DNA of 64,000 bases. Source: Fragilaria crotonensis (taxonomy: Eukaryota; Bacillariophyta; Fragilariophyceae; Fragilariales; Fragilariaceae). Positions 9,129-54,508 of the stretch are shown here, piece by piece. Position 1 is the stretch's first letter. The number at the start of each line of letters is the position of its first letter. The notes under the pieces are model-generated. The model was given only the letters and a program-made list of their open reading frames with translations. It did no database searches and was not told the DNA's origin. Position numbers and translations under genes: made by a program. The DNA is taken from contig JAKSYS010000024.1 in the NCBI GenBank assembly GCA_022925895.1, forward strand, positions 149,880 through 213,879, given 5' to 3'.

Positions 9129-9163
9129 CGCTTCCTCTGCGCTTTTAGTAAGTTACAACCAAG

Positions 9164-10419: not shown

Positions 10420-10432
10420 ATGGCGGCAAACC

Positions 10433-21876: not shown

Positions 21877-22941
21877 TCCGATTAAATGTCATTCAAATGA
21901 CGTCGGCATACGACACGCCACTTAGAACCGGTGTAGAAAATTTAGCTCCACGTGGAAGCCATATAAGAAGGGAATTTCAGAATTATTCTTGAAAATATTC
22001 TTTCAACGCAAATCTGCCGCCGGCCCTCCCACTCACAGTCGAAATTTGAACGCTCACTTACATTATTTACAATTATATCTATGCATATATACATACAACA
22101 CACGATACCAGTACATGTACTCCTGTACAATAAATATAACACCACCTCGTCTATACTCCAGTATTGTACTCATATGCACCAGCTGCGGCACAAATCGATT
22201 CATAAAATACGACGAAGACAAAACTACGACCTTTTGATACTGCATTTCTACAGGAGCGGGTCGTCGACTGTACTCCAGTAGCGCAGTTGACATGTACAGT
22301 GTACTCCGAGTACAGTACTGGAGTACCTGGTACACTACTACCGGTAGATATGAAATCATGCTACTACAAACTACAATACGTCGATACGAACGCAACTACT
22401 ACAGTACGACTAAAATGCTACTACCTGGTTCTCCGGTACGTCGGTACCAGTGCTCGTACGCCGGTGTTGCTGTTGTCAAGTGAGACCCATCAAAAAATGC
22501 TCTGAAAATCAATCAAAACAGGTTCACTCCCATTGTCATTACAAATGACTGCCTACAATTGCTACAAGTAAAGAAGACAAAGACTGGAAGTAAGAAAAAG
22601 GGTCAACTACAAGAGAAATGGACCCACAGTTGAGGGTCCATTGTCACAAATTACAATTTGGTATTTTGTGTAAACCGGATGCGTTCTACCGGTAGACTAA
22701 GACATACATTGACCTCCGTTTCTACGTCTTTTCTACGTTCCTGTGTAGGATTATACCGGAGCGCCCGTACAAGTCAAATTCAAAATTCAGCGCGGCTCAA
22801 ACGAGCACAAAACGGCCATGTAGCCGGCCGGTCCGAGCGTGCCAGATTATTTGACGGACGATGAAATCAGAAACGGATGAGTTTTTTTTTCAGGATTCCT
22901 ATGATGTCACGAAAACGTCACATGAATGACATTTAATCGGA
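21877..22941. mobile_element. 1.07-kb non-autonomous inverted-repeat element
   Basis: The left end starts TCCGATTAAATGTCATTCA (21877) and the right end is its near-perfect reverse complement, ending at 22941; the arms match over about 28 bases, with AAA/TTT also paired outside. A possible degenerate 9-bp target repeat (6 of 9) lies outside (21865-21873, 22945-22953). The left arm ends in TGACGTCGGCA. About 23 of 32 bases match the ends of the 12.5-kb element at 30752-43266, so it may be mobilised by that transposase. It has no coding capacity. Its interior (about 22440-22660) resembles the interior of the element at 43406-44463, including a tract around CTACAATTGCTACA. Confidence 0.75.
22460..22655. 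repeat. Dispersed repeat shared with 43960-44170
   Basis: Shared words in the same order include GTTGTC, CATTGTCA, ACAATTGCTACA and CAGTTGAGGGTCCAT; similarity is roughly two thirds to three quarters by eye. In this copy ATGGACCC and GGGTCCAT can pair around an 8-base loop (22617-22640). Confidence 0.55.
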
Positions 22942-24497: not shown

Positions 24498-25040
24498 TCA
24501 TGTTACCTTGTTGTTGTCCAGATCGTTGCGGCAACTCCGGGTGCATCTTTTTGGCGCCACAGGAAATTCCAAAGAAAACAGACCTCGCTCAATAGCATCA
24601 CCAAGTTTTTCGGCAAGAAGTCCCGCCAGTTCCGACAATGGTAAATCGTTCTCGTCTCGATCAGTTTGAGAGGGAGAGTTGCCAATCTCCTCTTCTGGGT
24701 AGTCAAGCAATATATCCCTGCGTTTGGTTTCCAGGAATTTTTGAGCTTCAAAACAGGCCTCCCTTGAAACCGATCGAAGTGATTCTCGTCGTCGGTTTTG
24801 CTTGAAACAAGAATGCGATGAAATGCACAACTCTTCCGTCGTCAAGCGGTCCGGTCGCTTCGTTTGACTAGTAGTACAAGTCGCTCCATGACGACGGTTT
24901 CGACGACGTGATTCAATTTTGCCTGTTTTCTCGTTCACTTCGTGAAGAGGAGCAATAACGCTGGTCCGATGATCAACAGTACTCCGAGGAGAACACTCGA
25001 TTTCCTTTGGGATGGGGAATCTTCGATGCGATGCATTCAT
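24498..25040 (-). CDS. Small paralogous protein, copy 1 (PIPKEIE / RRRESL / LAGLLAEKL family)
   Basis: 180 residues, no known domain recognised. Three conserved blocks define the family in this window: an N-terminal RRFPIPKEIE; a middle NRRRESLRSVSREACFEAQKF; and a C-terminal DLPLSELAGLLAEKLGDAIERG that should form an amphipathic helix. Between them are basic Arg/Ser-rich and acidic variable stretches that look disordered. No signal peptide or membrane segment. First of five minus-strand copies spread over 30 kb. Conservation of the blocks with divergence elsewhere supports real coding. Confidence 0.7.
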   Translation of the reverse strand: MNASHRRFPIPKEIECSPRSTVDHRTSVIAPLHEVNEKTGKIESRRRNRRHGATCTTSQTKRPDRLTTEELCISSHSCFKQNRRRESLRSVSREACFEAQKFLETKRRDILLDYPEEEIGNSPSQTDRDENDLPLSELAGLLAEKLGDAIERGLFSLEFPVAPKRCTRSCRNDLDNNKVT

Positions 25041-26937
25041 GATGATGGTTACACCTGTTATTGTGTTTCTTGATTTCCTTTTTGGACCAGTGGCGCGCCG
25101 GTATTTGTGTGTGTGTGATGATGAGTGTGTGTTGGGATGTCGAGAGTCAAGCAGTGTCTCGTGTGTGCAACATTTTCGCCCTTGTTTTACTGTGTGAGAG
25201 GGAACTCTCGACCGGGAACGAATGCGAATTCTCCATGATTGTTACTTCAAGTTCTGGTTTTGTGGTTCAACTCAATTGGTCACATGCACATTGTATGATC
25301 GTAGAAACAAAAAAGTTCGCATTTGTTCGTCCGTGCCATCATGTCATTGTCCTAACTACTCGTGTAACTGCATTGAAACTTCAAACATGAATCATGTTAT
25401 GGTACTTCGACAGCGATGGAAGAAGGATAATCCAGTATTGTCATGATTACATTTAAGATGGCATCTTGAGTGTTGCTCCCCGCTGACGCCCGAGGACCGA
25501 CCCTACGTCATCAGAATTCTTCCTGAACAGATCTTGGAGTTGCAGCGAGGAGTAGTACGTAGCAGTAATTTGTCCATGCTCGTGTTAACTTTTTGTGGGT
25601 CGGTTGACAGTACTCGGAGTGGAAAGAAACAAAGAAACTGCACAGGAGTAGTAAACAGCGTACCAGTAACTACGGTATTAATGGAGCAGACGTACTCCGA
25701 GTCTTTGTAGTATGAAACAGGCGGTCATCTCACTGCGCTTCTCTGCTAGAGCAACCGGTAGTAGCAATTGGATTTTGAAGGTGGTGAACGCACGCCATTT
25801 CTCCAGATACTCCGATCCCATCAGAATGCAGAATTCAGTGATATCCTAGTCGCAACAGGCTGCTGTCCATGCCATGATTTTGTAATTCTTCAGCAAATGA
25901 GCTCCGACCCGGCTTGAAGCAAAGCGTCTCATGGCCAGGAATGTTCGCAGATACCCTGTCCTACAAATCCATTGTCACACGCCGAATAGCGCTTTTCAAC
26001 AATTGCAAGAACACTTAATCATGTACAAGAACTCGTAATTGACAGACACTGGCATCTACGGTAGTTCCGCGTGTGAGATGCTGCCAACCACCATTATGCT
26101 GCGAGTCATGGTGAATGGTACGTGTTGTTGTTGATGCTGTCCATTGGACTTTAGCTTCTCAGCTCTAACCTTTTTCTTATTGTCTAATAGACGATGAATA
26201 TCGGTTCGCAGCGCATAGCAGCAGCCATGCCGTAACTGAACGACTTGAGTTGCCACTGTCACGTTAACTTGGAGTGGAAGAGTTGACAGCGTTGACAAGA
26301 GCCAACACGGACGAAGTAGGGTACACACTCGAAGTTATCGAACGAGTCATCACGGCTTTATTGACATTGTTGCGATTGGTTCAACGCGGACGCTTCACCA
26401 TTCCTCGGTTCATTCAAAGAGGGATTTGCCTCATACGATGCAACTGCACCGTCAGTTCAAGCCGGTGGATCTTATCCACTCTACGAAACTCGTCGTAGTT
26501 GAATCTCATGAAGCAGCCCAAGACGCTATACTGCCTGAGAGATTGCCCCAGAATTGCCTATTGGATATCAAGGTCAGAGTCCATGTATTGACCTACGGAA
26601 ATCGTGTTCAAGGATTCCATATTATTTACCTCGTCAAGAGCTTGAAGCGTGCACAAATATCAAATAGATAGAGTCGCGCAGCATGATTCGCTGTTCGAAT
26701 TTCGCCCTGATGATGTTGACAATCGACAGAGCGAGATCGGAGAAGCTCGATAACGTCGCTTTCGGGACTCTAACTATTCTGGTTTCACCAAATTCTGCGC
26801 ATGGCGGAGTATCAGGTGGAAGTCAATGAGATGGGTTTGTACGACAACCATGCCAAAATGTCCTTCATTCGAGGTCGCGTTCTCTATTTCAAACATGCAA
26901 ATACCCAAGAAACTAAGGAATAATGTGATGGCATTGA
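25041..26937. repeat. Non-coding DNA with relics of duplicated units
   Basis: No intact gene. The stretch around 26800-26930 (CGGAGTATCAGGT..., CCTTCATTCGAGGTCGCG) resembles 51040-51110 and 51255-51345. Short ORFs at 26274-26671 are of doubtful coding status. GTAC-type words are frequent at 25600-25710. Confidence 0.45.
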
Positions 26938-29015: not shown

Positions 29016-29519
29016 TCATAGTGGTATACTCTGATGATTCATATCCTTGTGCATTTTCTTGTTGCTACTAAGCGACGGTGAATCGTCAAACGAGAACAGA
29101 CCTCGTTCAACCGCATCATCAAGTTTTTCTGCCAGGAGACCAGCTAACGCTGACAACGATAGCTCGTTCTCGTCTCGTACACGAGAGCGAGAGTCGCAGC
29201 TCTCGTCCGTTGAATATTCAAGCAATATTTCCATGCGAGTGGTTTCCAAGAATTTTTGAGCCGCCGTACAAGCCGTACTTGAAACTGATCGAAGTGATTC
29301 TCGTCTTCGGACTTGCTTCAAGCTCATAGGTGGTGGTGTACACAAATGTGCCGATGACTGCTTGTTTGTGGGATCGCGTCGTCGGCTTCGACGAGATGAT
29401 CCTGTGGATCCGACTCTGCTTGTGTCGTCGCCCGTTGTATTGAGAGCAAAGACGTTGCCAAGACAATTGTTGAACTCGATTTCCTTTGGGATGGTACATG
29501 ATCGATTGGCGGAATTCAT
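29016..29519 (-). CDS. Small paralogous protein, copy 3
   Basis: 167 residues when started at the ATG (29519) that aligns with the paralogues; an open extension upstream to 29636 has no counterpart in them. Blocks: CTIPKEIEF, VRRRESLRSVSSTACTAAQKF and LSLSALAGLLAEKLDDAVER. A SRRSRRRDP basic stretch separates blocks 1 and 2. Nearest gene to the left end of the 12.5-kb element. Confidence 0.72.
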   Translation of the reverse strand: MNSANRSCTIPKEIEFNNCLGNVFALNTTGDDTSRVGSTGSSRRSRRRDPTNKQSSAHLCTPPPMSLKQVRRRESLRSVSSTACTAAQKFLETTRMEILLEYSTDESCDSRSRVRDENELSLSALAGLLAEKLDDAVERGLFSFDDSPSLSSNKKMHKDMNHQSIPL

Positions 29520-30751
29520 GGTTGCGAGTTGGTCGTTCGTGTATTGAGGAGTTCTTGATTTGTGTGCCTGTTTGTGCGTTCGTCGTTGTGTATTGTGGAG
29601 TTCGTGATTGTGTGCCTTGTGCGATGCCTTCACCAAGAATTCTAATCGACTTCAACCTTGAACTAGTTTTATCGTTGTGGTTCAACAAAACATGGTTTTT
29701 GTCTCGACGATGCTTCATCTGATCCTATATCTTTTTTCTACGATTACCTTTTTATGTTTGTTAGTAATAACAAATATTTCGAAGTGACTCCGAAACGAAT
29801 TCTCGGTCAGTTGCAGTTCGATATCGGTTCAACAACTGGCTTCACGCATTTCAGCATCACGATTTGGCATCTAAGGAATGAGTCTTTCTGGCATTCTCAG
29901 AAAAGTCAACGCGGGGTCATCCTGCATATGGTCCTTAGGTACTTACTGTAGGTTTCAACCCACGTCCCATTCAATGAGTTGTTGAATGATGCAAATTTCA
30001 ACTTGTGAATGAAGGATGATAGGATGATAGTCCGTGTTACGACTACCGGTAGGGTTCAATTACAGGATTCTCCGAGTACTACAGTACATTCTACATTGAT
30101 ATGCCATTCTTGCCAGTTTTGGCATCATTAGAAACCTTCTTGATGCGGTTGTAGTACGCAGCAACCTCTGTGAGCGGATATTTGTTTCCAAGTACGAAAG
30201 GCATTGCTGTCGAATGGGCGAAGACCTCTGCTTACCGCACCGCCCTTCTCTGAGTTATTGCCTCCTTTTTCCTCCTTTCTAGCTAGTTGCTGGAGTAGTG
30301 GTGGCACGGTCGTTTGCTTCTTTAGTTCTTCTGAATGTAATTGTTTAATAAAGTGAATTCACTACAATTACAAGTGTGTTGCTGTGCCAATAAAAAAACA
30401 AATCCATCACAACTGTATTTGTAGGAATGTTTTATCTCAGTAAAACTAATCTTGAATTAAACATGAGCGAACCCCTACATTGCAATCATCCCTTTGACTG
30501 TACTAGTAGTTGCTAACTCTATTAATTCCCTTGCATTTTGTTTGTTCGCAAATGCGACCATTCTGAATCACATTCGTTGGCATATGTCTTACTTTGTTTA
30601 GTGCGTCCTACTATTGGTCGATGTTGACATGTTGACCCCTCAGTATGTAGCTCTATTCGTTGGTTTGTTCATGCACTGATAGATGAGATAACGAGGATGT
30701 GACCAATGTCCAGCCGTCGTCCGTCTGACCTTCATTCTCGTACATATGAGA
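29520..30751. other. Upstream flank of copy 3 and DNA left of the large element
   Basis: Shares blocks with the upstream flanks of copies 2 and 4 up to about 29930. From 30000 to 30750 nothing recognisable. Confidence 0.45.
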
Positions 30752-30783
30752 TCCGATTAGGTTTCACCAATTTGACGTCAGCA
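30752..30783 (+). repeat. Left terminal inverted repeat of the 12.5-kb element
   Basis: Begins TCCGATTAGGTTTCACC and ends TTGACGTCAGCA; identical in reverse complement to the right end. Contains the palindrome TGACGTCA. Confidence 0.88.
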
Positions 30784-31103
30784 CCCACGTCACAGTAATA
30801 AACTACAGTGAGTCCTCCTGTAGAAGATTTTTGAAGACATCGGAAATTTGAATGGCTGACAAAACACGGAATCTTTGTTGTTGACTTCTGTCGGCGCTTT
30901 TCCTAACGCGCATGTCAACCCTTTGTCATGCCAGAAAGATAACTGCTACATATCTCCTTCTATCAGTGATTCATGTGTTTCCCTTGTTTTGAATCACTCG
31001 AACTTACATTACTTTGTATTCGATTACAACCTAGTAGGGTTGCAAATCTCCTTGAATACAAGTACACTTTTCTTCTTAATCAACACCAACAGAACTTTCT
31101 TTC

Positions 31104-31785
31104 TGTACGAATTTCGATCTTCAAATAGTCTCGAATGGACAAGTAACAGTGTGTCAGTATGATGACGACTATTTTGTGTACGAATTTCGATCTTCAAATA
31201 GTCACGAATGAACAAGTAACAGTATGCCAGTAAGAAGACGACTATTTGGTGTACGAATTTCGATCTTCAAATAGTCACGAATGAACAAGTAACAGTATGT
31301 CAGTACGATGCGACTATTTGGTGTACAAATTTCGATCTTCAAATAGTCGCGAATGGACAAGTAACAGTATGCCAGTAAGAAGACGACTATTTGGTGTACG
31401 AATTTCGATCTTCAAATAGTCACGAATGAACAAGTAACAGTATGTCAGTACGATGCGACTATTTGGTGTACAAATTTCGATCTTCAAATAGTCGCGAATG
31501 GACAAGTAACAGTATGACAGTAAGAAGACGACTATTTGGTGTACGAATTTCGATCTTCAAATAGTCACGAATGAACAAGTAACAGTATGACAGTACGATG
31601 ACGACTATATGGTGTACGAATTTCGATCTTCAAATAGTCACGAATGAACAAGTAACACTATGACAGTACGATGACGACTATTTGGTGTACGAATTTTGTT
31701 CTTCAAATAGTCACGAATGAACAAGTAACACTATGACAGTAAGAAGACGACTATTTGGTGTACAAATTTTGACCTTCAAATAGGC
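31104..31785. repeat. Palindromic 73-bp tandem array 1
   Basis: About ten units with period 72-73. Each unit has a core GACTATTTG ... CAAATAGTC (9-bp inverted arms around GTGTACGAATTTCGATCTT) and a linker containing GAACAAGTAACAGTATG. Less regular at both edges. It lies between the left end of the element and the 3' end of the DUF6824 gene. Same orientation as array 2. Confidence 0.92.
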
Positions 31786-31817
31786 TACTACATACAGCAT
31801 GTACGACTACGATGAAC

Positions 31818-33412
31818 TCATTTCTTGCATTCTTCATCCGAAGTACTGTAATTGCCGTCCCGAATTAATGTTTGCTTCCAAACACTTTGTCTATTGAAAC
31901 ACACGTTGCACCACCAAGTGTTTTCGAGCTTTCTCTTTTCATTGCAACACATGGAACATACATGCTTCTTACATTTCCGACACGAGTGCTTTGAAGGCTT
32001 ATTGCATTCAATACAAGCATCATCCTCGTCACCAGCTTTCTTACTTCCTGTCATCCGCTCTTTTGAAGGCTTATTGCATTCAATACAAGCATCATCCTTC
32101 TCACCAGCTTTCAAACTTCCTGTCATCCGCTGTTTTGAAGGTTGCTTGCATTCAATGCCAGCATCATTGTCGTCACCAGCTTTCCTCTTTCCCGTCACCG
32201 TACTTTGTTTCCCAAAGTACACTGATTTCCTTAGACGATCCCGAACCTCTTTCCTTACTTTTTCTGTGTTGACACCTTTCCAAACGTTTTCCTCTTTATT
32301 GACAAAGATGTAACCTTTTTTCCGCATCTCCTCTAGCACTTCACCTGCAATATTGTCCTTAGCGCTTTCTGTTCGACTTTCAAACGTGGCATCTGCAGCT
32401 CTTCGGATTATCCGACGGAAAGCCATGTTTGGTGGATGTCCCTTTGGTTCATCGCGTTTACGTACTACAATACCATTTGGCGGTAGAGATGTACTTTCAA
32501 ATGGACCTGGTCCGGCCTCCAATTCATTTATTGACGGCGTCATGCCCTCCCCTTCTTTTTCGTTACACACACGTTTCATTCGCGATCTAATATACGCCAT
32601 TCCACCATCGTATGTTTTTTCCTTCCACCCTTTTTTTTCTGTCATCTCGAGGAAACGAAATCCCTCCTTTTTTAGAGTTGTGTAAATGGTACGCTGCACC
32701 TCATATTTTTCTGCCTGATTAGCTGCTGACAAGTGCATTTTCTTGAAGTCCAATGTGCGATCAAGGTACGGAATGCATTTGCGGTGCCCCTTCCCACACA
32801 GTACATCCTTTTTCCCAGGTTTGGCGATTATCGAAACACTTTCATTTTCCTTTTCAAAATTATCGCGTATAAACTTCAACGCATTTTCGACAAATGGCAA
32901 TGGAGACTTCTCGTGTGAAAGAGCAAGGATTTGCCAACACAGATTCTTCTTCTCATCTTCTGATGCAGCATATTCGAAGTCCTTCTTTAAACTTGAAATA
33001 AATGTAGCAATATGCTGTATAGACAATGGCACAAATTCACTTCCCTGCGAGAGCGCCGTGGTCGTATGTGCTCCATCAGGCATCTTTTCGGTGTCTTGAA
33101 TCTTTTCTGGTGATGTATGATCTTGTTCCTGTACTGCCTCTGCTTCACCCTTTCGTGCTGGCGACTTCGTCAACGATGGATCATCCTGCTTTCGCTGGCC
33201 TAGACCACCCGACTGCTCTTCACCACTATCCGTCTTCCCTTTTTCTTTGTTTGTCGAGGCTTTCGCGAAGTCTTTCGCAACCGCTTCGCTACATCATCAT
33301 TATTCATCTGGCACAAATCTGTTTCCCTGCCAAGCAACACTCTTTCTTTCGACAAAGGTTGCCACTGCAATATCTTGGCTAAATCAGGAAACGCATGTCG
33401 TGGTCCGGGCAT
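31818..33412 (-). CDS. DUF6824 protein with cysteine-rich C-terminus (one frame break near the start)
   Basis: The main frame (33173-31818) has 451 residues. Residues about 122-200 contain DVLCGKGHRKCIPY ... NQAEKYEVQRTIYTTLKKEGFRFLE ... GMAYIRSRMKR, the diatom-type DUF6824 domain. A second, weaker helical block resembling the same domain follows at about 255-320. Then come three near-identical repeats with C-I-E-C-(N/K)-(K/Q)-P-S-K, and a zinc-finger-like tail SCRKCKKHVCSMCC ... WWCNVCF. A frame starting at 33412 (MPGPRHAFPDLAKIL) joins it if one base is corrected in the A5G3 run near 33240, so 33412 is probably the real start. Possible DNA-binding regulator or transposition accessory protein; role not known. 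Confidence 0.75.
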
Positions 33413-33439
33413 CGTTAGTTTCCAACGAAAGCGACCGTT

Positions 33440-35473
33440 CTATCCCCTTGCTGGGACGAAGATATTTTTGTACTCATGAGCTTCTTCTCGAACCGACCCA
33501 AAGTTGCTGCTTGCTATTCTGTCAATCAGTTGAAACAAGCTCACGTACACGTCATGCAAATAGTGAGCAAATTTTCGTGTTGATGTGGGAATGTTCCTGC
33601 CCATGCCCTTGACATTGTCATTCCTGTCAAAAGTGATGTCACCTTTCACATTCCCACTCGTGTCGAATGTGACGTCGTGCACCATGACACAAAAATCGCG
33701 GATGAAAATCAATGATTTTAAACCACTTTGCGCCACATCCTTTGACGTTTCCTGAATTAGAATGTAATCTGGCGGTAAACTCAACGGTCGGAAGCGCCCC
33801 CTTCTCGATGTCACATGTCTCATTGTTCTTGTCAGTGACGACACAACCAAAATTAACGCTTTGCCGTGTGAAACCGACGTAAAACGAATGCATGTTGAAA
33901 AACCATGGTGCAACAACCTTGTCTTTCCATGGTGAGCTTTCCCTTTTCTTTTCTTCTTTTGGTTTTCGTGCTTTTGCATTTGGATCATTCTCAGGACTGA
34001 GTATGAAGTGCACCAATTTGAGGAAGAACCGGCAAATTGGCGGTGGGTCAGAACGGCGACGTTTTCCAGTTGGATCAAACAAAAAATATCCACATTTTGT
34101 ATCGTTATCATTGTTCCCAGTTTTTCCACAATTCACCGCTACGAAAACAGTCCATGAACAATCTTCATCCTCTTGTGCAGGAATGACAATAAACGGCTTC
34201 GTGAGGAGATCCTTGTGTTGTATAATGAACTCCACCACCAGAATTGTTGCCTCCATAAACCTCTTTTGGTCAATCTCGTAATGAAAGATGTGGTTTACAA
34301 ACTGTCTTCTCTCTGTATCGGTTTTTAGGTCGCGAACCGAAGATGCAACGTTCCGTCCTTCAATGAAGGATGTAAAAAAGGCTCTCCATTGTTGACACCT
34401 CAGTCATGATCTTACAAGGAATGATGGTCAGGGTCGACCAAATTTCAGCTTTACAATACCGCTGCAGCCATCCCAGAGCAATGTCCACAAAGTCTGGAGA
34501 AAGAGCGTCACCTTTGCGCGTAAGGCAACGATCTATCCAAGTCAGACGAGCACTTGGACCTTGGAATAGGTATTTTTCCATTATCGAGTTCTTCGGATGG
34601 AAGGCCTTGTCATCCCAAAATTCACCCGAGTAACAATCATAAGTTGGTGTACAAAATGTTGCCTCTTCGTATGTTAAGTTTCCCGGGAAGAAGGCATACA
34701 CGGATGGACAATCAATGGTGTTGTCATTGGGATTGTTGAACAACCTTTTCAATACTATCTGGTTTCTGGATTCTTGTGGGAAGGCAAAATATTCACGTGT
34801 AAGGCAAATCGTCAACCACTTCAAATCGTTGCTGAATCCGAGATAGTCCTTGAGTGGACTATCATCAACCTCATTGACAAAACAGTCTCTCAAAACTTTA
34901 GGAAATGCTTCAGTCCCTTCAGCCATTTCGGCAAAGTTGCGTCTTGAATAATAACCCCATGCCACTTTGTTCGCGGTCGGATTTGCTTTCAAATAAACAT
35001 TTACTTCATCAACACCCACCCTACACCTTACAACTTGATGCATAATCGAAAGCAAAAAAGTTGCCATTCCGTTGGCCTGATAGTCAACCTTTGTTGCCAA
35101 AAAGAACCAAAACAGCGTTCTCTCGTTGTACAAACGTTATAGCGCATATAGCAGTGGGTTTCTCCTTTTCCCATATACTAAGTGTCTCGCCCTTACCAAG
35201 GCAAGATGACAGTGACTTCCGATCTGAATGGTCGTCGAATATAACATGATACAATTCATAAACAGTATCACTCGCATTGTATTCATCTTCTCTTCCAACA
35301 AAGTGAAGAATACGATATTCCTGTAGGAACGTTGGTAATTGATCACGTGGAATGCGGTGGTGCCATTTCATCATCTCAATCATCGTCTTCATTACTGGGG
35401 GTTCACATCCGTCAAATGGATCATCGTCATGCGTACTGGTTGCCTTCGGCGCGCTCTTTGTCTTCGGGGGCAT
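33440..35473 (-). pseudogene. GNAT-like plus C48/Ulp1-like protein, frame-disrupted
   Basis: Four frame segments read as one protein. It starts at 35473 (MPPKTKSAPKA). The first domain (to about 34930) looks like a GNAT acetyltransferase: ICAITFVQREN, then VDYQANGMATFLLSIM (a Q-x-x-G-x-A acetyl-CoA motif), then YLKANPTANKVAWGYYSRRNF. The second (34500-33650) resembles Ulp1-type cysteine peptidases: SPDFVDIALGWLQRY, KPFIVIPAQEDEDCSWTVFVAV and GYFLFDPTGKR. The His before Trp is Ser here, and no clear catalytic Cys follows, so activity is doubtful. Frame changes lie near 35105, 34375 (T6 run) and 33775. Lies divergent to the oxygenase gene across array 2. Confidence 0.55.
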
Positions 35474-35559
35474 ACTGAGGGAGATGAGTTGTTTAAGACT
35501 TGACGACCTTCAACATATACAAATCAGGTGCAGATGCTCACAGTGTCGATTGCACTAAT

Positions 35560-37009
35560 TGTGTACAGATTCTGATCTTCAAATAGTCTTCTTAGACGAA
35601 GTAACCCGTAATTTCGATCTTCAAATAGTCACGAATGGACAAGTAACAGTATGACGGTACGAAGACGACTATTTGGTGTACGAATTTCGATCTTCAAATA
35701 GTCGCGAATGGACAAGTAACAGTATGACGGTACGAAGACGACTATTTGGTGTACGAATTTTGATCTTCAAATAGTCACGAATGGACAAGTAACAGTATGT
35801 CAGTACGATGACGACTATTTGGTGTACGAATTTCGATCTTCAAATAGTCACGAATGGACAAGTAACAGTATGTCAGTACGATGACGACTATTTGGTGTAC
35901 GAATTTCGATCTTCAAATAGTCGCGAATGGACAAGTAACAGTATGTCAGTACGAAGACGACTATTTGGTGTACGAATTTTGATCTTCAAATAGTCACGAA
36001 TGGACAAGTAACAGTATGTCAGTACGATGACGACTATTTGGTGTACGAATTTCGATCTTCAAATAGTCGCGAATGGACAAGTAACAGTATGACGGTACGA
36101 TGACGACTATTTGGTGTACGAATTTTGATCTTCAAATAGTCACGAATGGACAAGTAACAGTATGACGGTACGAAGACGACTATTTGGTGTACGAATTTCG
36201 ATCTTCAAATAGTCGCGAATGGACAAGTAACAGTATGATGGTACGAAGACGACTATTTGGTGTACGAATTTTGATCTTCAAATAGTCACGAATGGACAAG
36301 TAACAGTATGTCAGTACGATGACGACTATTTGGTGTACGAATTTCGATCTTCAAATAGTCGCGAATGGACAAGTAACAGTATGACGGTACGATGACGACT
36401 ATTTGGTGTACGAATTTTGATCTTCAAATAGTCACGAATGGACAAGTAACAGTATGACGGTACGAAGACGACTATTTGGTGTACGAATTTCGATCTTCAA
36501 ATAGTCTCAAATGGACAAGTAACAGTATGTCAGTACGATGACGACTATTTGGTGTACGAATTTCGATCTTCAAATAGTCACGAATGGACAAGTAACAGTA
36601 TGACGGTACGATGACGACTATTTGGTGTACGAATTTTGATCTTCAAATAGTCACGAATGGACAAGTAACAGTATGACGGTACGAAGACGACTATTTGGTG
36701 TACGAATTTCGATCTTCAAATAGTCTCAAATGGACAAGTAACAGTATGTCAGTACGATGACGACTATTTGGTGTACGAATTTCGATCTTCAAATAGTCAC
36801 GAATGGACAAGTAACAGTATGTCAGTACGATGACGACTATTTGGTGTACGAATTTCGATCTTCAAATAGTCACGAATGAACAAGTAACACTATGACAGTA
36901 CGATGACGACTATTTGGTGTACGAATTTTGTTCTTCAAATAGTCACGAATGAACAAGTAACAGTATGACAGTACGATGACGACTATTTGGTGTACGAATT
37001 TTGTTCTTT
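35560..37009. repeat. Palindromic 73-bp tandem array 2
   Basis: About twenty units of the same repeat as array 1 and in the same orientation; linker with GGACAAGTAACAGTATG. It separates two genes that are transcribed away from each other (GNAT/C48-like left, oxygenase-like right), so it occupies both promoters. The right-hand units drift back to the array 1 type (GAACAAGTAACACTATG). Confidence 0.93.
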
Positions 37010-37160
37010 GACGAGTGTTCTGAGTGATGTCGCCCTTGAGCACTGACGTACTTCTGACACATGCGACGTGACAGAAAGTATAAACTCTGATCACATTTTT
37101 CCTCCTTCGATTCCTTGCCCAACGCTGTTGCGAATGGTTATCAAACGGCAGAAGCAACTT

Positions 37161-37403
37161 GGAAACCATCATGAGGACGTCAAAACAGGTCACTGTTATC
37201 TGTGACTCGGGGCACAGTAACAGCAGTTCCAACCTTGACGTCACAAAAAGCATGATGAGGAGTACGGTTGTGGAATGCAAATGTAGCAACGAGGAAACCA
37301 TCATGAGGACGTCAAAACAGGTCACTGTTATCTGTGACTCGGGGCACAGTAACAGCAGTTCCAACCTTGACGTCACAAAAAGCATGATGAGGAGTACGGT
37401 TGT
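37161..37403 (+). repeat. Perfect 111-bp duplication with 132-bp offset
   Basis: 37161-37271 and 37293-37403 are identical. The offset is 44 codons, so the oxygenase-like protein carries the MRTSKQVTVICDSGHSNSSS segment twice. Each copy contains TGACGTCA, the site also present in the element's ends. Perfect identity implies a very recent duplication or an assembly duplication. Confidence 0.95.
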
Positions 37404-38503
37404 ACAGAATGATACCACAAGTGAGAACATTGGCAAGACTGGAAAACGAGGTTTTCAACATGTATATAAATCAAGGAAAAAGTCAAGCATCACGACGCAG
37501 GAAGCATACAAGAAGGCAATAGAAAATGGCAAGCCAAAGAGTGTTTATGCAAAGAAGCGCAATTATTTGAAGAAGAAAAGGCTAGATAGTTTGATGCAAG
37601 TTTCGTCGTCCCATGAGCATTCACTGGGCAAAACACTGTTGCAGAACAGTTGTAAACCATTATTCTATAGTGGAGCCGATATGGAAAACTCAACGAGACT
37701 TCGCAAATGCATAGGTGATGCGCACATGCTGTTTGCAATCAATGATCTTAAAGTCATTGACACTATGTCTGGTGCCCGTTTGATTTTACCGAGTGGGGAT
37801 AACGTATTCACTTTGATCCCACGTCCGTATGTTGTTGAAAAACTTACAAGGGTTAACCAAACCATCGAGGCACTTCATGCACTTGAGGATGCAGAATCCA
37901 AAGCAGAAGTGCGTGGAATTAAACGAGTACCTGTTGCGGAAGATAATGGCAAATACACCACTGTTGGGTTAAAGCCAAACCGTGGTTCAACTGGTATTAT
38001 CGAGTCTTGGCCGAAAACATTAAGTGACTGGAGCAAGACACAAATCCGTGACTTAATGAAGAGGTGTCATGAAGTTGCAAAGGATTCATTCCAGGGAATG
38101 ATCTTCGAGGACTCCGTAGTGCCCAATGGTTTGCCGATTGGCCAAGTATGGTAGGTATGCCATCTGAACCAATTTGGGGTAGTCTTGCCTGTGGCAAAAC
38201 TATTGTTTGAATTCGCATACCGATGAGGATTTTTTCTATTCCTTGACAACCATTATTTCGCAACATGGATTGCAACCGGGTCGGTTTGATAAATACCGAT
38301 TGGATGCCGACGTAACGAACTACTTTGCATTTGCAGAACAAGGGGTTGCCGTGGCACTGAGGCCGGGAGATATGTTACTTTTCAATCCATTGTATCAGCA
38401 CTGTTTGACATCCCGCACATTGCAATATCAAGAGAAAGATGTGTTTTGTGTGTCGTTATACCTGAAGACAGCAGTTGTTGGAGGAAACAATAATACCAAA
38501 TAG
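37171..38503 (+). pseudogene. 2OG-Fe(II) oxygenase-like protein, two frame breaks
   Basis: The open frame runs to a stop at 38154. Text then continues in a second frame (MPSEPIWGSLACGKTIV, 38157-38210) and a third (NSHTDEDFFYSL ... to 38503). Read through, the C-terminal part has the double-stranded beta-helix pattern of 2-oxoglutarate/Fe(II) oxygenases: HTD as the H-x-D iron ligand pair, LRPGDMLLFNPLYQH with the distal His, and SR three residues later. This could be TET/JBP-like or P4H/AlkB-like; I cannot separate them. The N-terminal part is basic and contains the duplicated segment. If functional it might modify DNA or a protein during transposition or silencing (inference). The stop codon TAG lies in the first unit of array 3. 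Confidence 0.6.
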
Positions 38504-39526
38504 TCGCCGTCGTACTGTACTGGTGATACTCGTACTGTGACGACTATTTGAAGATCGAATTTCGATCACCAAATAGTCGCCATTGTACTGTACTGGTGGT
38601 ACTCGTACTGTGATGACTATTTGAAGATCGAATTTCGATCACCAAATAGTCACCTTCGTACTGTACTGGTGATACTCGTACTGTGACGACTATTTGAAGA
38701 TCGAATTTCGATCACCAAATAGTCGCCATTGTACTGTACTGGTGATACTCGTACTGTGACGACTATTTGAAGATCGAATTTCGATCACCAAATAGTCACC
38801 GTCGTACTGTACTGGTGGTACTCGTACTGTGATGACTATTTGAAGATCGAATTTCGATCACCAAATAGTCGCCATTGTACTGTACTGGTGATACTCGTAC
38901 TGTGACGACTATTTGAAGATCGAATTTCGATCACCAAATAGTCGCCATTGTACTGTACTGGTGATACTCGTACTGTGATGACTATTTGAAGATCGAATTT
39001 CGATCACCAAATAGTCGCCTTGTACTGTACTGGTGATACTCGTACTGTGATGACTATTTGAAGATCGAATTTCGATCACCAAATAGTCACCGTCGTACTG
39101 TACTGGTGATACTCGTACTGTGATGACTATTTGAAGATCGAATTTCGATCACCAAATAGTCGCCATTGTACTGTACTGGTGATACTCGTACTGTGACGAC
39201 TATTTGAAGATCGAATTTCGATCACCAAATAGTCGCCATTGTACTGTACTGGTGATACTCGTACTGTGACGACTATTTGAAGATCGAATTTCGATCACCA
39301 AATAGTCGCCATTGTACTGTACTGGTGATACTCGTACTGTGACGACTATTTGAAGATCGAATTTCGATCACCAAATAGTCGCCATTGTACTGTACTGGTG
39401 ATACTCGTACTGTGATGACTATTTGAAGATCGAATTTCGATCACCAAATAGTCACCTTCGTACTGTACTTGTGATACTCGTACTGTGATGACTATTTGAA
39501 GATCGAATTTCGATCACCAAATAGTC
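38496..39526. repeat. Palindromic 73-bp tandem array 3, inverted relative to arrays 1 and 2
   Basis: About fourteen units. Each holds GACTATTTGAAGATCGAA-T-TTCGATCACCAAATAGTC (an almost perfect 37-base hairpin) and a linker with TACTGTACTGGTGATACTCG. The reverse complement of the core matches the array 1/2 core, but the linker is different. Lies between the convergent 3' ends of the oxygenase-like and transposase genes. Confidence 0.93.
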
Positions 39527-39600
39527 CCCATCCTAGTCATGATGTCGAACAAGAACGAAAGTCTAAGTCAACATTGTTATTAATTCTAAATGTACTACTT

Positions 39601-42600
39601 TTAAAAACTCCATGATGAGACATATGTTTTGCACACCTTGCCAACAGGACACCCCGAAACTAGGGACCCTTTGGGTGGTGGTTTCTCAGAAGCCATGTTG
39701 GCTTTCTCGGTGAAGATAATCTTGTCGAGTGCCTCCTCAACAAGAAGACCTCTCTCTTGTGGGCTTTTTGAGGCATCAACAAGACTAACTAGTTCCTTTG
39801 CTCTTGGCATAATGCTGTCGTACGCATTGTAACGTTCCAATTCGGATACGTCTTCATGGTGAAGAGCACGTGATCCAAAATCAATGCAGTCAGTTTCTAA
39901 ACTCGTAGATTCCATGAGGATGTCGTCATTGTCGTCAAGATGAGTATTCGTGTGCTCAGTTTCATGACCAGCGTCGATGAGTGGTTCCTCAGGCAAGTGG
40001 ATCTCTTGCGACATTGATACGGGAACAGTATTTTTGGCATTCTTCAGGGCAATCTCAACCTCATCCCTGGTGTAGTTTACGACACTGTCCAGTTTTGAGG
40101 GTTTTTGGAAAAGGGAGTCAATGGTACTTTCAGTGGCATTTCTGAATTGCTCATTTGAATTCTTCCCACACTTGTAGACACGATGGAATGGAGAGAAAGT
40201 ATGATCGTCATTCTTTGGAATAAAGTTTGGGCCTTTGCAATCATTCTCACGTATTGATTCCAGCTTCTGCTTTATCTCTTTCTCAGTTAGTGAGCAATCA
40301 CTCTCCTTCTTCATTGAGAAATAAATATATGATTTCCACCAACGTACTGAAATGTCGTGGTGACTGATGTTTGGATTGCTTGCATAATACTTCTTCACAT
40401 GCATCATGTGTGGGCAGATGACACCATTGCATTCGTAGTAGTTGCAGTCACACATCAGACAAACCCTGTTGTCAAAGTCTTGTGAGGTGACAGTGTACAC
40501 TCTGTGGAAGCATGGAATCAAAGAATGGACATCACGGTCAACTGACCGAACAACAAGCCATTTGAAAGGGCTTGCTCTCCAAGAAGCATAGCTCTCGCAT
40601 TGATCAAGAGCGAATTTCAACATGAACTCTGCAGGAAGGGTGACATCATTGACGGTGGGAGAGTTACTCCAGGTTGCTCTTCCAAACAGGGCACTAGCCA
40701 TATATCGTTGGTATAGGTCAAATTTGTTGGAATCGGTGTCAACTTGAATTTTGACAGATTTGTCAACACCATGCTGTGGAAGCACACAGGAAGGACCAGC
40801 TTTGATAGCATTATTTGTACCTTCGTGCCCAGAATTTGTGTTGGTCTCAAGTGTCTCACCCCTTCCTCAGATAAAAGCAATAACTCTGCTCTTGTGGAAT
40901 TATGTAATTGCGGATAAAGTGCAATATCTTTTCTCCACCGTCCTCCCCAAAAATTGCCTTAATAGTGTCTGATTTCAAGTACATATGTAAAAGGGCGTAA
41001 CTTCTTTGATGTTGACGATTCTTTTAGAAAAATGGTATCACAGATAACACACAGAATAAACATGTAGGTGTACTCACATTTCGTACTCGTCTTGGAAAAG
41101 TATCCCTCGGCGCATCCAGCTGTAGATCCAGGTTTTTATTACTCTTACCTGCCTCTTGGCGGCATCATCCTTGCCTCTCCGATAACCCAAGCCTTTACAA
41201 TTTCGTCGCCAGCCTTGATCAACAAGGTGCCACCCACATCGAGTACGTACTGCATTGACAAAATGTGTGGAGATGGCATAGTCAACTTGTGTCATTTCTT
41301 GGGAATCACCGTCAGTCATGATAAGTTTCACAGCATGTAGTGATTGTGCACCAAGAAGAACAGGAATGGCTTCTTGGAATAGCCAACGGAAGAACCAAGA
41401 TCGTTCATTCGGGGCAATGCACCTAACAACCACAGTCACCTTTCCATTTGAATCTTTCACAGAGAGTGTCAGCAATGGTCTGCTTTCATTGTTCGTCTCA
41501 TGAGTGCCGTCAACGCATACAACTTCAGGAAAAGCGTGGAACAGGCGCCTGCCTTCTGGTAAAACCCAACAACAGGCAATGAGTATATCCTGGTCTTCCC
41601 TTGCACCAACCGCAAGTCTGCTTTCCAAAGCATATTTCTTAAAAGTGGATGTCTCTGCCACCTCCAGAGGTACTGGCTTCTCGTGAATAGGTGAAGTGTC
41701 ATCATCAGTTGGGATAACAGAAAGGCTGGTTAGTTCACCTGATAAATCATGAGGAATGGCTTCAGTACGTGCAGCCTTTACACTGTTACCACGTAGTTCT
41801 TTTGATTTGCCATGATGATACAGACAGACATACGAGGCACCACTTTTTTTGTAAGTAACTCAACATATTCTCACAGGGTGAAGACTCCGATGCTGTTGTG
41901 GTAGCATGAACATTTGGGGAAGCCATGAAGTCTTTTGCCATTTTTGTAAATCCTTGCACATATGCCATCTGACCACGAGTAAAAATCTGACCCGTACGGG
42001 TTTTAGTAAACAGAGCCGCTTGGGCAGGCTGGATGTTGGCAACACTCATTGCAGCAACAGTTTCCAGGGTTGTAATGTCAAGAAAGCGTTTACGATTCCT
42101 TATTTCATTGGAAAGAAGAGGAGGATGGCCAGTGTGCTGATTGTTTCCAATTCCGCAAACAAGGAAAAAGCTATTATGGTCAATTCGGGAGTGTGAATTT
42201 GACACGACAAGTGCAGGAGTTACCACGTAGAGTTGAATTGCGACGTTTCAATCCGATGCCAGAACTCTTGCACCCACGGGCATTCTTCTTATCACCAGTG
42301 TAGGTGGTAACACGATAAGAATCGGTTCCAGTACTTTGGTTCGGTGTGCAGGACATTCCTCCTTCTTCTGATGAATACTGGCGGAAATTACTGCATTTCA
42401 ATACGCGTTGGTCAGTCAGTAGTACATCTGTGACATTGGTTGGGGAACGCAAACCATAACCATTGGAAACAAGGGCACAATTCCCAACAGATTTGGCAGC
42501 TTGGAGTAAGTCAGTGATAAGACTATGGCCTCCTGAATCCTTTCGAAATCCACCATTGATGGGATAAAGAGATGGACTGAACCGAATAATATGCTTGGAA

Positions 42601-42770
42601 CCCTTGTACATGGAGGTAGTGTACTGAAAGAGGTCGTACTCCGTTTCCAATGATGCATTGAAATCATCGGTTGCATGACAAAAATGACCTTTGAAAGGCA
42701 AAGAAGCAGTCCATGACATAGCCTTGAGAGCAGATAGAGTCTGGTCCACAGCATGGGGATCCTGCATCAA
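39601..42770 (-). pseudogene. Mutator-like (MULE) transposase, several single-base frame breaks
   Basis: Order of domains on the minus strand: a WRKY/FLYWCH-type zinc-binding region (RRNSTLRGNSCTCRVKF, about 42190-42240); a helical region (NRKRFLDITTLETVAAMSVANI, QIFTRGQMAYVQGF); the DDE core with VCVDGTHETN (41510) and MTDGDSQEM (41300); and a C-terminal SWIM finger, MCDCNYYECNGVICPHMM (about 40400-40460). These are hallmarks of MULE transposases, which cut and paste by binding terminal inverted repeats. Frame changes occur near 42190, 41850 (A7 run) and 40860 (G4 run); a likely intron (41077-40969) is off by one base in phase. A functional copy may exist elsewhere. Confidence 0.82.
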
Positions 42771-43234
42771 TGGTACTTCTTGTTGTGGATGATCCTAAAG
42801 AGACCGAAACATGGGGTTGGCAACAAATTAATCGGTAGGTGGTTGCTATAGTAATGCAAGCAAAATGACAACAGATAGAGAGCAAACAAGAGCGAAAACA
42901 GAACAAGGGCAACAAGAGAAACAAAAGCAGCAAGGAGAGCAAGAACAACAAGAGAAACAATAATGACAGGGAGACAAAGTGCCATACCATCGTGGTCGTA
43001 AAATATCAAAATGATGAGTTTTGTGCGAGTAAACTCAAATCCACTACTGGTACCATGTTTTATACACATCTAGACACGATCATTTTTATTTCTATTCAAA
43101 CAAATGTGGAGCAGATTTATGTTCCTTATCTAGAACGTAGTTTTGCACAAGAGTTGGTTTGAAAAGAGGGCGGTGATAAAGTCAAAGAGAAAGATTCCGT
43201 GCAAGTTAAATTCCACAACTAAAGTGCTAAAAAA
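42771..43234. other. Transposase 5' flank and right subterminal region of the element
   Basis: Purine-rich tract (AGAGCAAACAAGAGCGAAAACAG-like) at 42880-42970. No gene beyond a possible short upstream exon of the transposase. The last 80 bases show imperfect inverted similarity to 30860-30905. Confidence 0.5.
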
Positions 43235-43266
43235 TGCTGACGTCAAATTGGTGAAACCTAATCGGA
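43235..43266 (-). repeat. Right terminal inverted repeat of the 12.5-kb element
   Basis: Exact reverse complement of 30752-30783, starting TGCTGACGTCAAATTGG. Flanking sequences on the two sides share only GAGAT, which is too little to call a target duplication. Confidence 0.88.
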
Positions 43267-43405
43267 CCCGAGATGCCGAGTATTCGTGTACGTGTACCGT
43301 GGTACTGTTCCGAGTTCCACACTGACACACGTACTAAAATATTGTGACACACACCAACGTTGACGAATGCAATAACATCTCGCAGTGCTTGTGCTTAGAT
43401 CAAAT

Positions 43406-44463
43406 GAGAATGCCTAATGCACTAACAATTAAGGCGCTAACTAATCGCTAACCCAATCAAAATCCGCGGAGACGTCATCATTTCGAGTCTCGTCGTCACA
43501 GATTTTTTGCACCCCCGTCTCTAAGTGAATCAAGAAGTCATTGTTGTGTGAAAAAGAATCATACCTATGTGAATACAAATAAAACTTTACGCACATGTAA
43601 GATCATGTCATATCACATGGAAAAAATTCGGCAGTTGATGCCTTCTATGCATATGACATGTGAAGGATACATATCCTCGCGATACCTGTAGAATTTATAC
43701 TATGTATCGGTACATACGGAGTACACATTCCTCTACAAGACGAAACGACGACCACGCCGTTGATGACAAACCTACATCATTTTTATACTGCAAGTCTACG
43801 AGCCCAAAGCAACGAATAACGGCGTGGTCCAAGAACTTGTACGAACCCAAGAAACGTTCTCATGCACAGTTGCGACATACTGTAATCCATACTGGAGTAG
43901 GATGGCTTTACGCGTACCTGCTACTGGACTCGATTTAAAAACAGTACGCCGATACCGGCTACGGTGTTGTTGTTGTCATGTTGTCATCATCCTGCATCAG
44001 AAATGCTTGGAATGTTGATCAAAACCAGAAAGCTTCACCCCATTGTCACAAATACTGACTACAATTGCTACATGCACTACAGACACAGATTGCAAGCAAA
44101 GATGAAAGGATGAACTACAGAGATATTTCATGCAGATTGTCTGCAGTTGAGGGTCCATGGTCCCAGAAGTAACTTTTTGTGAGCAGTGAGCATTTCCAAA
44201 AGTGTGCGAACGTGTCAACCGTAGTACTCCAGTACTTATGATTCAAATTCTACGCACCGTTAATTTTGTTCCCAAAAAATGCGGGTCAGATTTATACTAT
44301 TATCCATATCCTTTGATTGTTCATCAGATTTGAATCTAATTGATATTTTTTGAAGAGGTCGATGACCCTTTTGGGGTTTGGCAACCCCACCCCAAATCTG
44401 GAAGATTTTGATTGGGTTAGTACTTTAGTTAGCGCCTTAATTGTTAGTGCATTAGGCATTCTC
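43406..44463. mobile_element. 1058-bp non-autonomous inverted-repeat element with perfect 9-bp target duplication
   Basis: Ends GAGAATGCCTAATGCACTAA / reverse complement; arms match for about 45 bases and, after a short mismatch, again at AACCCAATCAAAATC. AGATCAAAT stands immediately outside on both sides (43397-43405, 44464-44472). A 9-bp duplication with long inverted repeats is typical of MULE-type elements. No coding capacity. Its ends differ from those of the neighbouring 12.5-kb element. The interior shares a tract with 22460-22655. Confidence 0.9.
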
Positions 44464-44472
44464 AGATCAAAT

Positions 44473-46057: not shown

Positions 46058-49000
46058 GATGGTTGTGTAGGTTTGTCGAATATGTGAGGCATATTGTGGT
46101 TATAGGTTCACTGGAGAATAGATTTCTGGATTAAATGTCATTGTGACTCTTGACGGAGCATTCGTGGTGAAGCCGACGTAGTTCAACCTATGCTGCTGTT
46201 TTTGTCTGAGAGCTGTGTCACTGGAATGAATGCCTCTTGTTATGATATGCCTTTTGATGTTTGTTTACAATGGAAACGAACGCTCGGTCAAATGCAGTTC
46301 GATATCGGTGCAACCATTGTTTAGAACACTTCCGTATCACGAATTGGCACCATGTAGGATTGAGTCGTGCTTGCATGGTCCAAGAAGTCTGTCGAGGTGG
46401 GGTCATCCTGCATATAATATCCCCGCAACAAAGGATGCGGCAATTGGCATTTGCCATTTGCAACTCTCAGACGTTGATGGATCTCGCCCTGCAGTCTTCG
46501 TCAAAGTTCAAAAAGTCGACCATGGTGGGGTCATCCAGCGTATGTCCACAATATGAATGGGAGAATGCCGCGCCCTTCGACTGTCACGGATACACACAAG
46601 TTGCGAAGACACGCCAAGACACAAGACGCAGTGGATGGATACATGTACAGTAGTAGCACCAGGTACCAGGTACTGGAGTACCGGGTATTACTGGTAGTCT
46701 ACTGAGACTGATCCGATGGCTTCTTCCAACACAGACGCAGATCGCAGACACACGGATCCGAGTCGGCGTGACATAAAGTCGCGTCACAAGTTATTTCGTC
46801 CTCCTATATCGTTTTGCTTTGCGTCTTGTTTTCTGCACATATTGCACAAATGATTTGATGCTCCCGATGGCACCAGCACCTTGTCCTCCTCTCTCATTGC
46901 AGCCTTTATGGAGGATTTGCCAACAATGTCAAGTGCACACCAGCCTTTCTTGAAATTGCAGAAATCCACCCTGACGACCTGCGTGATCTCCTTGCACAAG
47001 TGCTACTGTTTCTAGGAGGAGTTCTTGCTTCCTCCTCTTATGAACAAAGATGGTTGTAGTACTAATTAAAAGTGATTTAAGCTTGAGCTCTTGCTGCAAA
47101 CTTACCACTAATCCCTTCCTTTAACAATTTCTTGTTACCCTTAATTATAAAAAAATCTGTCTTATAGTCTGGTTTTCACAATTTTCTTATTGCTTTTACA
47201 ACACCGTCATTCTGCCCTCTGACTGTTTACCTGCAAAACTAGAGGGAATTTGGTGTGTACCTATGCACCTTCACCATGACCAATGGACCCAGTACTCCAA
47301 TTCCATTCTTTGAAACCAACAAGCAAAGCTCCTGACATCCATCATCCAGCCATTCTTGACTTGTTTGCTAGAAGAGTTGCTCAAGTACAACTCCTACTAC
47401 ATTATTTCATCAAGAAAGAGAACCACCCAAGTCCACTAGTTGCCTGTTAAAAAGCCATTGACAATACTTGATTGGTAGTTTGTGCACCAATGGTGTGGAT
47501 TGATTGTGACCCTAGGAAATCACGCCGCAACAGAGCAAGATTTCAATGTAATTTGGAACAATTGGTGCTTCCCCAATCTGCTTCAATTTCAGTGGTTTGC
47601 ATCATGAGTTAACCAAATTGCTGCCACTGTCCTCATGGTTACTAGGAAGACACAACTCACACAACTGACCACAGGTGAAGTTTTTGCATCCACCAGGTAT
47701 ACTTTAGCACTAGATATGAGCTATTATCTTATTCTTGCGTCTCTAGAGTCATGACAAATGATTGGTTGACCTAATGTTTGCATCTAACCTTTTGCAACAG
47801 ACAATGATTGTTCATGATGTTCTTGCTGGTCAGGTCCTCGGTTGCTCCTTGCTGCTCACACCACTTGGAACTCCTAGCCCTGCACCTTTTTGACTACCTG
47901 AAGAAGAAGCCAAACGGATATATTGTGCTTGATTGTTGGCTGATCAGCCTGATATCCTTGAGGAATACCCAGATGATGAATGTGAGGACATTGGTCCTCG
48001 TCCACGACCAAATGCAAGAACATACTAGCCATGCCATCATGTTGACAGCTTCTAGCTAGTATGAATGAGGAGGTCTTTATCAGGAATTACTGCATTAATT
48101 TGCAGCATCCCTGCCTGTCATTTGGCCTAGGAAATGTCAGGAGGTGCATAGCAACAAGTTCTTATTGTTGATGAATTTATCACTATGATATCTGCCTTGA
48201 TGGAGGAAGCAATTTCCATTCATTGCATGCTCGAGTGTCATTCAGCCAGACTGTGGAAATTTCTGAAGGGGAACTCAAGTAGGAACACATTGCCTTCTCT
48301 TATCTTCATTACATCATGCTCGTGGCTGCAGCTGCCTGCTGTATTGTTAATGCCCACTGACACCACCCTATGGAAAACTTTGATGATTTGTGTACACAGG
48401 CATTGGTGGGTAGTACTCACCTTGGTCCAGGATGTAGTGGCATGAATGAGTCTGGGTTTGCGAGGAGTAAGGGTGCCGTAACACGGAATATGAGAATCAT
48501 TGGCAGTCATAGTAGAGAGCCGAACCAGGGTGTTCGTTTCCGACATTTGACACTCTCCTTTTTTTATCAAATTTGATACCACAGTCCTTGTAGTACTACA
48601 TGTACTATAGCTCTACTAGAGAGTGCGTGTGTGAGCTTGACATTTGAGCATACGAGGAGATTCTAGCACTTGTACCTGGTACCGTAGGGCTAGCTACTAC
48701 CGGTAGCTAGTCCTTGGAGTGCAATGCTACCCATGACTTCAGGACAAAGGAATTTCCTCAATTTTGCTCTCTACCGGTAGTAGCCAGTAGCCAGTAGCCA
48801 CTTCCAAGTGTGACGACTTTGGCCAGCTGAGTCTGCCAGAGACCAGAGGGCATCTTCGAGGAACGATGGAGTCTCTGAAGCGGCTACTCTTGTAGCACCA
48901 GACGATGATGAGATCTCTTCGTCGCTTGTACTTTGGACTTGGGATGGTTCGCCTCTGTCCTTCTCCTCCAGTATACACTTGAATTGGAGAACTTCAAAAA

Positions 49001-53851: not shown

Positions 53852-54508
53852 TTAGTTCTTCCTGCAGTCCATCGCGGCTGAGTCGTCCGAGGAGTATAGA
53901 CCTTGCTCGATGGCATCAGCAAGCTTCAAGCAAAGAAGGCTTGCTAACATCGATATCGGTAAATCGGAGTTATCTGTAGGATGAGGTCGAAGTTCAAAAT
54001 TCTTCGGATCCAGTCTCGTCGCGTCAGAAAACTCACCGAGCATGTCGTTGTCCTCGGCTTTCATGCACTCTTGAACATCAGAATCGGCCTTGCTTGAAGC
54101 TGATTGAAGTGATCCTCTCCTTCGAACTTGCCCATTAACGTCGCTACTTCTGTGTGACTGGTGTGAGCGTCCCTTGGAGCGCCTGTTGCTTGTTAAATCT
54201 TGTGTGCTACCCTTGTGCTCGCGTCGACGATTCTTGTTCTTCTTCGTGACTCTTTCTGGATGCTGTCCATTGAGCTCACCAATGTTATGATGAATGCCAT
54301 CGATGTTCTTGCATGACTTGCGAGTGCGCACTGCGGTGGAGCCAGCTTTTCTTGTCTTGAACATTTTCGCGTCCTTTTTTCCGTATCCATGACTCGCGTC
54401 ACTTTCCTCTGAATTCTCGTCCCTCCCATTGATGGCAACAATGTAATGGTCATTATTGATCCATTCAATTGTCTTGGGGATGGGGAAACGCTGACATGAT
54501 CGATACAT
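53852..54508 (-). CDS. Small paralogous protein, copy 5 (most diverged, longest)
   Basis: 218 residues. The three blocks are still recognisable: QRFPIPKTIEW, VRRRGSLQSASSKADSDVQE and LPISMLASLLCLKLADAIEQ followed by GLYSSDDSA. The linker between blocks 1 and 2 is about twice as long as in the other copies and strongly basic (RRKNKN-, RRREHK-like, Arg/Lys/Ser/His-rich), which could be a nuclear localisation signal. Preserved despite high divergence, so the family is probably under selection. Confidence 0.7.
   Translation of the reverse strand: MYRSCQRFPIPKTIEWINNDHYIVAINGRDENSEESDASHGYGKKDAKMFKTRKAGSTAVRTRKSCKNIDGIHHNIGELNGQHPERVTKKNKNRRREHKGSTQDLTSNRRSKGRSHQSHRSSDVNGQVRRRGSLQSASSKADSDVQECMKAEDNDMLGEFSDATRLDPKNFELRPHPTDNSDLPISMLASLLCLKLADAIEQGLYSSDDSAAMDCRKN

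Follow-up and report, generated by a model that had tools for sequence, protein, structure and literature searches.

A probably inactivated MULE-type transposon with three dyad arrays and accessory genes in Fragilaria crotonensis

A window of 64,000 nucleotides of Fragilaria crotonensis DNA (contig JAKSYS010000024.1, positions 149,880–213,879, forward strand) contains an element of 12,515 bp at window positions 30752–43266. We interpret it as one inactivated copy of a cut-and-paste transposon of the Mutator-like element (MULE) type, with four genes and 32-bp terminal inverted repeats. That these ends delimit a single transposon is well supported, and we hold it with high confidence. Three noncoding arrays of a 37-bp dyad accompany the genes, and these dyads may once have enabled the element to recognise itself and to resist silencing by the host.

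Boundaries, transposase and state of the copy

The left (30752–30783, plus strand) and right (43235–43266, minus strand) terminal inverted repeats match exactly. MULEs usually have such repeats, although some lack them; here the feature is present with a 32/32 match. With up to three mismatches allowed, the 32-bp end occurs at two sites in the window, both perfect, against a mean of 0.00 across 100 shuffles, and no additional copy within this limit lies inside the element. The repeat is the second longest among nine exact inverted repeats of at least 16 bases outside the arrays, the longest belonging to another small element. Target-site duplications of 8–11 bp are usual in MULEs but not universal, the table of a Mutator survey including groups that lack them (PMC6446971). 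None was found at the element ends (8–11 bp, at most one mismatch, three bases of slack), and the same settings detect one at a neighbouring element (43405–44464). The flanks of the large element have only a 5-mer in common, at shifted offsets, which is not convincing as a duplication; the assignment to MULE was made on the transposase. A search of Rfam with 30700–43300 gave no match.

The transposase gene (39601–42794, minus strand) extends over several frames. Its minus-strand frame 41859–41074 matches the Pfam families MULE (PF10551; E 7.9e-14, 52.3 bits against a cut-off of 27.6) and ZSWIM1-3_RNaseH-like (E 4.3e-14, also above the curated cut-off). In addition, string searches located catalytic residues (D at 41511, D at 41313 and E at 40824) with an intervening CxxH, as well as a SWIM-type CxC...CxH from 40452, which we take to be the DDE, C2H and SWIM motifs. 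The Rehavkus group, with its minisatellite and PHD finger, was set aside, as the transposase matches the MULE model. The first-pass annotation, made from the letters alone, had described a 12.5-kb unit with perfect 32-bp inverted repeats, a MULE-type transposase, three related repeat arrays and frames in need of repair, and our analysis bears out each of these points.

Frame changes, identified by eye, break three of the four genes, the transposase, an oxygenase-like gene and the gene at 33440–35509 each running over at least two frames, and the present copy is therefore probably dead. An active enzyme from the present transposase gene is unlikely, because the gene is spread over several frames; a candidate GT–AG intron near 41077–40969, seen by eye, does not alone restore the frame. 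Introns have little room as the cause of the frame changes, since adjoining frames overlap in the transposase and in the 33440–35509 gene, and the gap between the two oxygenase-like frames is 28 bases. Decay is likelier than poor sequence, because frames of 748, 1017, 1069 and 1413 amino acids stay open elsewhere in the window. Assembly error, the less likely source, would be in keeping with the overlapping frames found elsewhere too, at 411–1947 and 16313–17445 (an intron being possible in the latter), and with the poor polishing that a repeated element may suffer.

A second element of 1.07 kb lies at 21877–22941, about 8 kb left of the large one, and the ends of the two elements are related. 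The pattern TCCGATTA-N13-TGACG, which was composed after the ends had been seen, matches the window four times, at the four ends of the two elements, against one match in 200 shuffles. Local alignment gives weaker evidence, its scores being reached by 12, 54, 3 and 64 of 1000 shuffles. The small element, perhaps a non-autonomous relative of the large one, likewise showed no target-site duplication.

Dyad arrays

Repeat and motif searches define three arrays of 73-bp units: A1 (31104–31783, plus strand) with eight dyads, A2 (about 35580–37008, plus strand) with 18, and A3 (38495–39531, minus strand) with 14, the last being inverted relative to A1 and A2. A2 lies between the divergent 33440–35509 and oxygenase-like genes, and the oxygenase-like gene sits between arrays of inverted orientation. 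The window contains 84 copies of the motif GACTATTTG, against 0.58 expected, and all 84 are inside the three arrays; when one mismatch is allowed, 13 sites lie outside the arrays, two of them within the element. The motif is paired as GACTATTTG-N19-CAAATAGTC to form the 37-bp dyad, whose arms are exact in 38 cases, and a limit of eight mismatches brings the number to 40. Neighbouring dyads are spaced by 73 bp in 34 of 37 intervals and by 72 bp in the other three, a period that approximates both seven helical turns and half a nucleosome core. The arrays are absent from 39532–43266 at the right end, the left array starts about 350 bp inside the element, and the ends carry no GACTATTTG motif.

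A1 and A2 agree at 37/37 dyad and 33/36 spacer positions; between reversed A3 and A1 or A2, the dyad consensus remains alike at 34/37 positions and the spacers agree at only 21/36 and 23/36. Within arrays, mean column identity is 0.98–1.00 in the dyads versus 0.94–0.95 elsewhere. Because the dyads stay alike between arrays while the spacers diverged, the simplest reading of the sequence is that the dyad would have been under selection as a protein-binding site, and we put the chance that the arrays serve as such sites at about even. Transcribed dyads would fold as hairpins of −11.2 and −16.8 kcal/mol, and with such predicted folding a role at the RNA level is possible.

The arrays also differ in composition. 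Their CpG observed/expected ratios are 1.73 (A1), 1.98 (A2) and 1.54 (A3), against 0.56 in the transposase region; the oxygenase-like gene has 0.79, the two remaining genes 0.92 and 1.01, and the window as a whole 0.97. A stretch to the right of the element also has a low ratio (0.67). At 47000–49000, outside the element, CpG is strongly depleted, two 1-kb bins giving ratios of 0.17 and 0.42.

Accessory genes

The oxygenase-like gene (37084–38503, plus strand) consists of two frames, 37084–38154 and 38183–38503. The second holds HxD...GDxxxF...H, in which HxD, GDxxxF and a distal His follow one another as they usually do in 2-oxoglutarate (2OG)-Fe(II) oxygenases. This pattern, composed after the frame had been seen, occurs in one of 434 window frames of at least 60 amino acids and in none of 200 shuffled sets, a looser pattern occurring 0.065 times per shuffled set. 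Shuffles of the frame itself carry the pattern in 5 of 200,000 cases and the looser one in 60 of 200,000. No PDB sequence matched the oxygenase-like frames at E <0.1, the best (E 0.19) being a methyltransferase, and no Pfam match to Tet_JBP was found in the element frames scanned. From its motif, the gene probably encodes a 2OG-Fe(II) oxygenase; the proposal of the first-pass annotation therefore holds at the level of the motif and gains nothing from family models or PDB sequences. The first frame contains a 132-bp tandem coding repeat (37153–37403).

The second accessory gene (31818–33293, minus strand) encodes two DUF6824 stretches (Pfam PF20710, E 6.5e-12) followed by a Cys-rich tail, as had been proposed. 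The tail has a weak likeness to FYVE_2 (E 0.0043, under the Pfam cut-off) and to the zinc fingers of rabphilin-3A (chain 1zbd_B, E 0.0016). The gene also contains a 72-bp tandem coding repeat (31990–32184). A full-text search of open-licence PMC papers returned none on DUF6824.

The third accessory gene (33440–35509, minus strand) is spread over long open frames at 33440–34132, 33639–34403, 34360–35136 and 35084–35509. Outside the arrays, the element has six frames of at least 250 amino acids, the transposase among them, versus none in 300 mononucleotide shuffles; the 33440–35509 gene supplies two of the six and is coding by frame length. The GNAT/C48-like identity given to it earlier is not supported, neither family models nor fold giving a match of its frames to GNAT or C48 (Ulp1). 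Only weak, unrelated matches fall in this region, such as CNK2_3_dom (E 0.0044, below the cut-off) in an overlapping frame. Structure prediction, made without relatives, yielded poor models, with a predicted local distance difference test (pLDDT) score of 52 for the DUF6824 protein and 40 for the would-be C48 frame, and the latter model carries no information. Foldseek with the DUF6824 model returned 61 PDB matches at E ≤10, the best at 1.5, which were not used.

Several other features of the window were recorded. A miniature inverted-repeat transposable element (MITE)-like element (43405–44464), 138 bp right of the large element, has perfect 40-bp ends and a target-site duplication of 9–10 bp. 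A Copia-type element (9152–14629, RVT_2) has frames 9152–10387 and 10388–14629 in one reading frame with a single stop between them, and readthrough of this gag-pol stop is possible. Furthermore, the minus-strand frames 24498–25241, 29016–29651 and 53852–54589 look by eye like paralogues, with PIPK.IE, RRRESLRSVS-like and LAGLL-like stretches; frame 24498–25241 has no Pfam match.

A possible anti-silencing role and its alternatives

MULEs with accessory genes and MULEs with repeat arrays have been described before. One close parallel to the present element is offered by the VANDAL elements of Arabidopsis. In the published accounts, VANC binds to tandem repeats in the element's own noncoding DNA, at a nine-base motif, and removes methylation, by which VANDAL elements escape silencing (PMC5735166, PMC10398659). 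Both systems are MULEs with accessory genes and a short motif arrayed in noncoding DNA. VANC proteins are described with peptide repeats (PMC5735166), and the DUF6824 and oxygenase-like genes contain coding repeats; some VANC genes are reported to encode Ulp1 domains (PMC13317346). By comparison, the arrayed motifs of VANC21 are reported to share a single orientation, whereas those of our element form inverted pairs, and VANC-like action would here be an analogy. A second parallel comes from fungi, where TET/JBP oxygenases, with a proposed role in escape from methylation, are found in DNA transposons of 11 lineages (PMC12730594). These share with our element a DNA transposon bearing a candidate oxygenase gene, but the lineages given there do not include MULE and our element lacks a Tet_JBP match. 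Among stramenopiles, Phytophthora MULEs likewise have a chromatin-type accessory domain; this is SET rather than DUF6824 or an oxygenase, and the relevant passages mention no dyad arrays (PMC6446971, PMC12730594). Group 37 (MULE-Diatoms) in the Mutator survey of 2019 resembles our element in its MULE transposase with a SWIM finger and in its 'No TSD' entry, and is listed with one open reading frame, no other motifs and ends of 123–124 bp, unlike the four genes, arrays and 32-bp ends found here (PMC6446971); this comparison is one of listed features. Among the papers listed by searches of the open-licence PMC literature on diatom MULEs, accessory genes and DUF6824, none was seen to describe an element of such build.

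Because the arrays resemble those of VANDAL and the oxygenase-like gene resembles those of the fungal TET/JBP transposons, anti-silencing is the best single reading, and all beyond a MULE with arrays and accessory genes we infer. The transposase of an intact parent, whose domain and catalytic motifs are observed, would have cut at the element ends. The three arrays would provide a platform of about 40 sites for an element-encoded protein, the likeliest reader of the dyads being the DUF6824/Cys-rich protein and the likeliest effector the oxygenase-like protein. Together, reader and effector would remove a silencing mark at the promoters of the element itself and spare host DNA, as VANC does for VANDAL. 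The contrast in CpG content would fit a methylated transposase and protected arrays. An inactivated MULE with dyad platform, reader and effector is the best explanation as a whole, at a confidence somewhat short of even, and its anti-silencing step, drawn by analogy, is doubtful. The most specific version, in which the DUF6824 protein occupies the dyads and brings a 2OG oxygenase that erases the mark, making this a self-recognising anti-silencing MULE outside plants, would be a long shot. The first-pass annotation had suggested a transposon with a de-silencing module; the unit with its 32-bp ends stands, its acetyltransferase part is without support, and the de-silencing idea, though not demonstrated, has published parallels (PMC5735166, PMC12730594) and fits the dyad arrays, which that annotation had noted but not drawn on.

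Several points weigh against such a mechanism, besides the missing target-site duplication and the after-the-fact oxygenase pattern. No family model above its cut-off matches the oxygenase-like frames, which are identified by motif only. DUF6824 is not known to bind DNA in this setting, and its predicted structure has no PDB match at E <1. No Pfam match to a VANC-type domain (DUF1985, DUF287) was found in the scanned frames at E ≤1 or ≤10. The CpG content of the arrays derives from a few amplified units, and the low ratio of the transposase region is shared by the stretch to the right of the element. Furthermore, 12 of 27 variable array columns, counted by eye and with no control, are CG/TG or CG/CA changes, which suggests that the arrays too were methylated at times. 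Finally, the window holds one copy, and viral, bacterial and archaeal collections yielded no relative. Viral contigs were scanned with the transposase, a 26-base end, a degenerate oxygenase motif and the read-through of the oxygenase, and bacterial and archaeal contigs with the transposase and the second oxygenase frame; nothing related emerged. Eukaryote genomes are not expected in these collections, and absence there says little. The sole motif match in the viral contigs (L001) is an unrelated protein with HTDEDF.

The strongest alternative, possible if less than probable, is that the extra genes are captured host passengers, as in Pack-MULEs, and the arrays an ordinary minisatellite grown by slippage. 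MULEs often capture genes, and certain MULE groups, namely Rehavkus and Phantom of aphids, have minisatellites among their listed features (PMC6446971). Three broken genes of four would also suit passengers. Against this, the accessory frames are long by the shuffle comparison given above, and slippage alone would not predict dyads that stay so alike between spacers that do not. Alternatively, the dyads may have no part in silencing and may serve the transposase or another factor in transposition or transcription, or act as RNA hairpins, which we consider unlikely. Subterminal repeats serve as such sites in some other transposons, dyad symmetry fits a dimer, transcribed dyads would form hairpins, and A2 has a promoter-like placement between divergent genes; the distribution of the arrays, with none near the right end and no motif in the ends, speaks against this reading. 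Least likely, and improbable, is a composite of two nested elements, or of ends joined by recombination between copies, with an accidental gene set: the missing duplication and the oxygenase-like gene between inverted arrays would fit it, but no end copy within three mismatches lies inside the element, the related small element and the surveyed diatom group (PMC6446971) also lack duplications, and one dyad is common to all three arrays.

Were the anti-silencing reading true, VANDAL-type recognition and fungal TET/JBP-type chemistry would be joined in one element, and DUF6824 would gain its first functional context. A single unit would combine defined dyads with candidates for both reader and eraser. 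In a diatom, young transposons are reported to rise when DNMT5a is lost (PMC9998398), and with a diatom as host the element would lie in a lineage in which this effect is described. If intact relatives exist, they would provide a test case for the resistance of transposons to silencing beyond plants and fungi.

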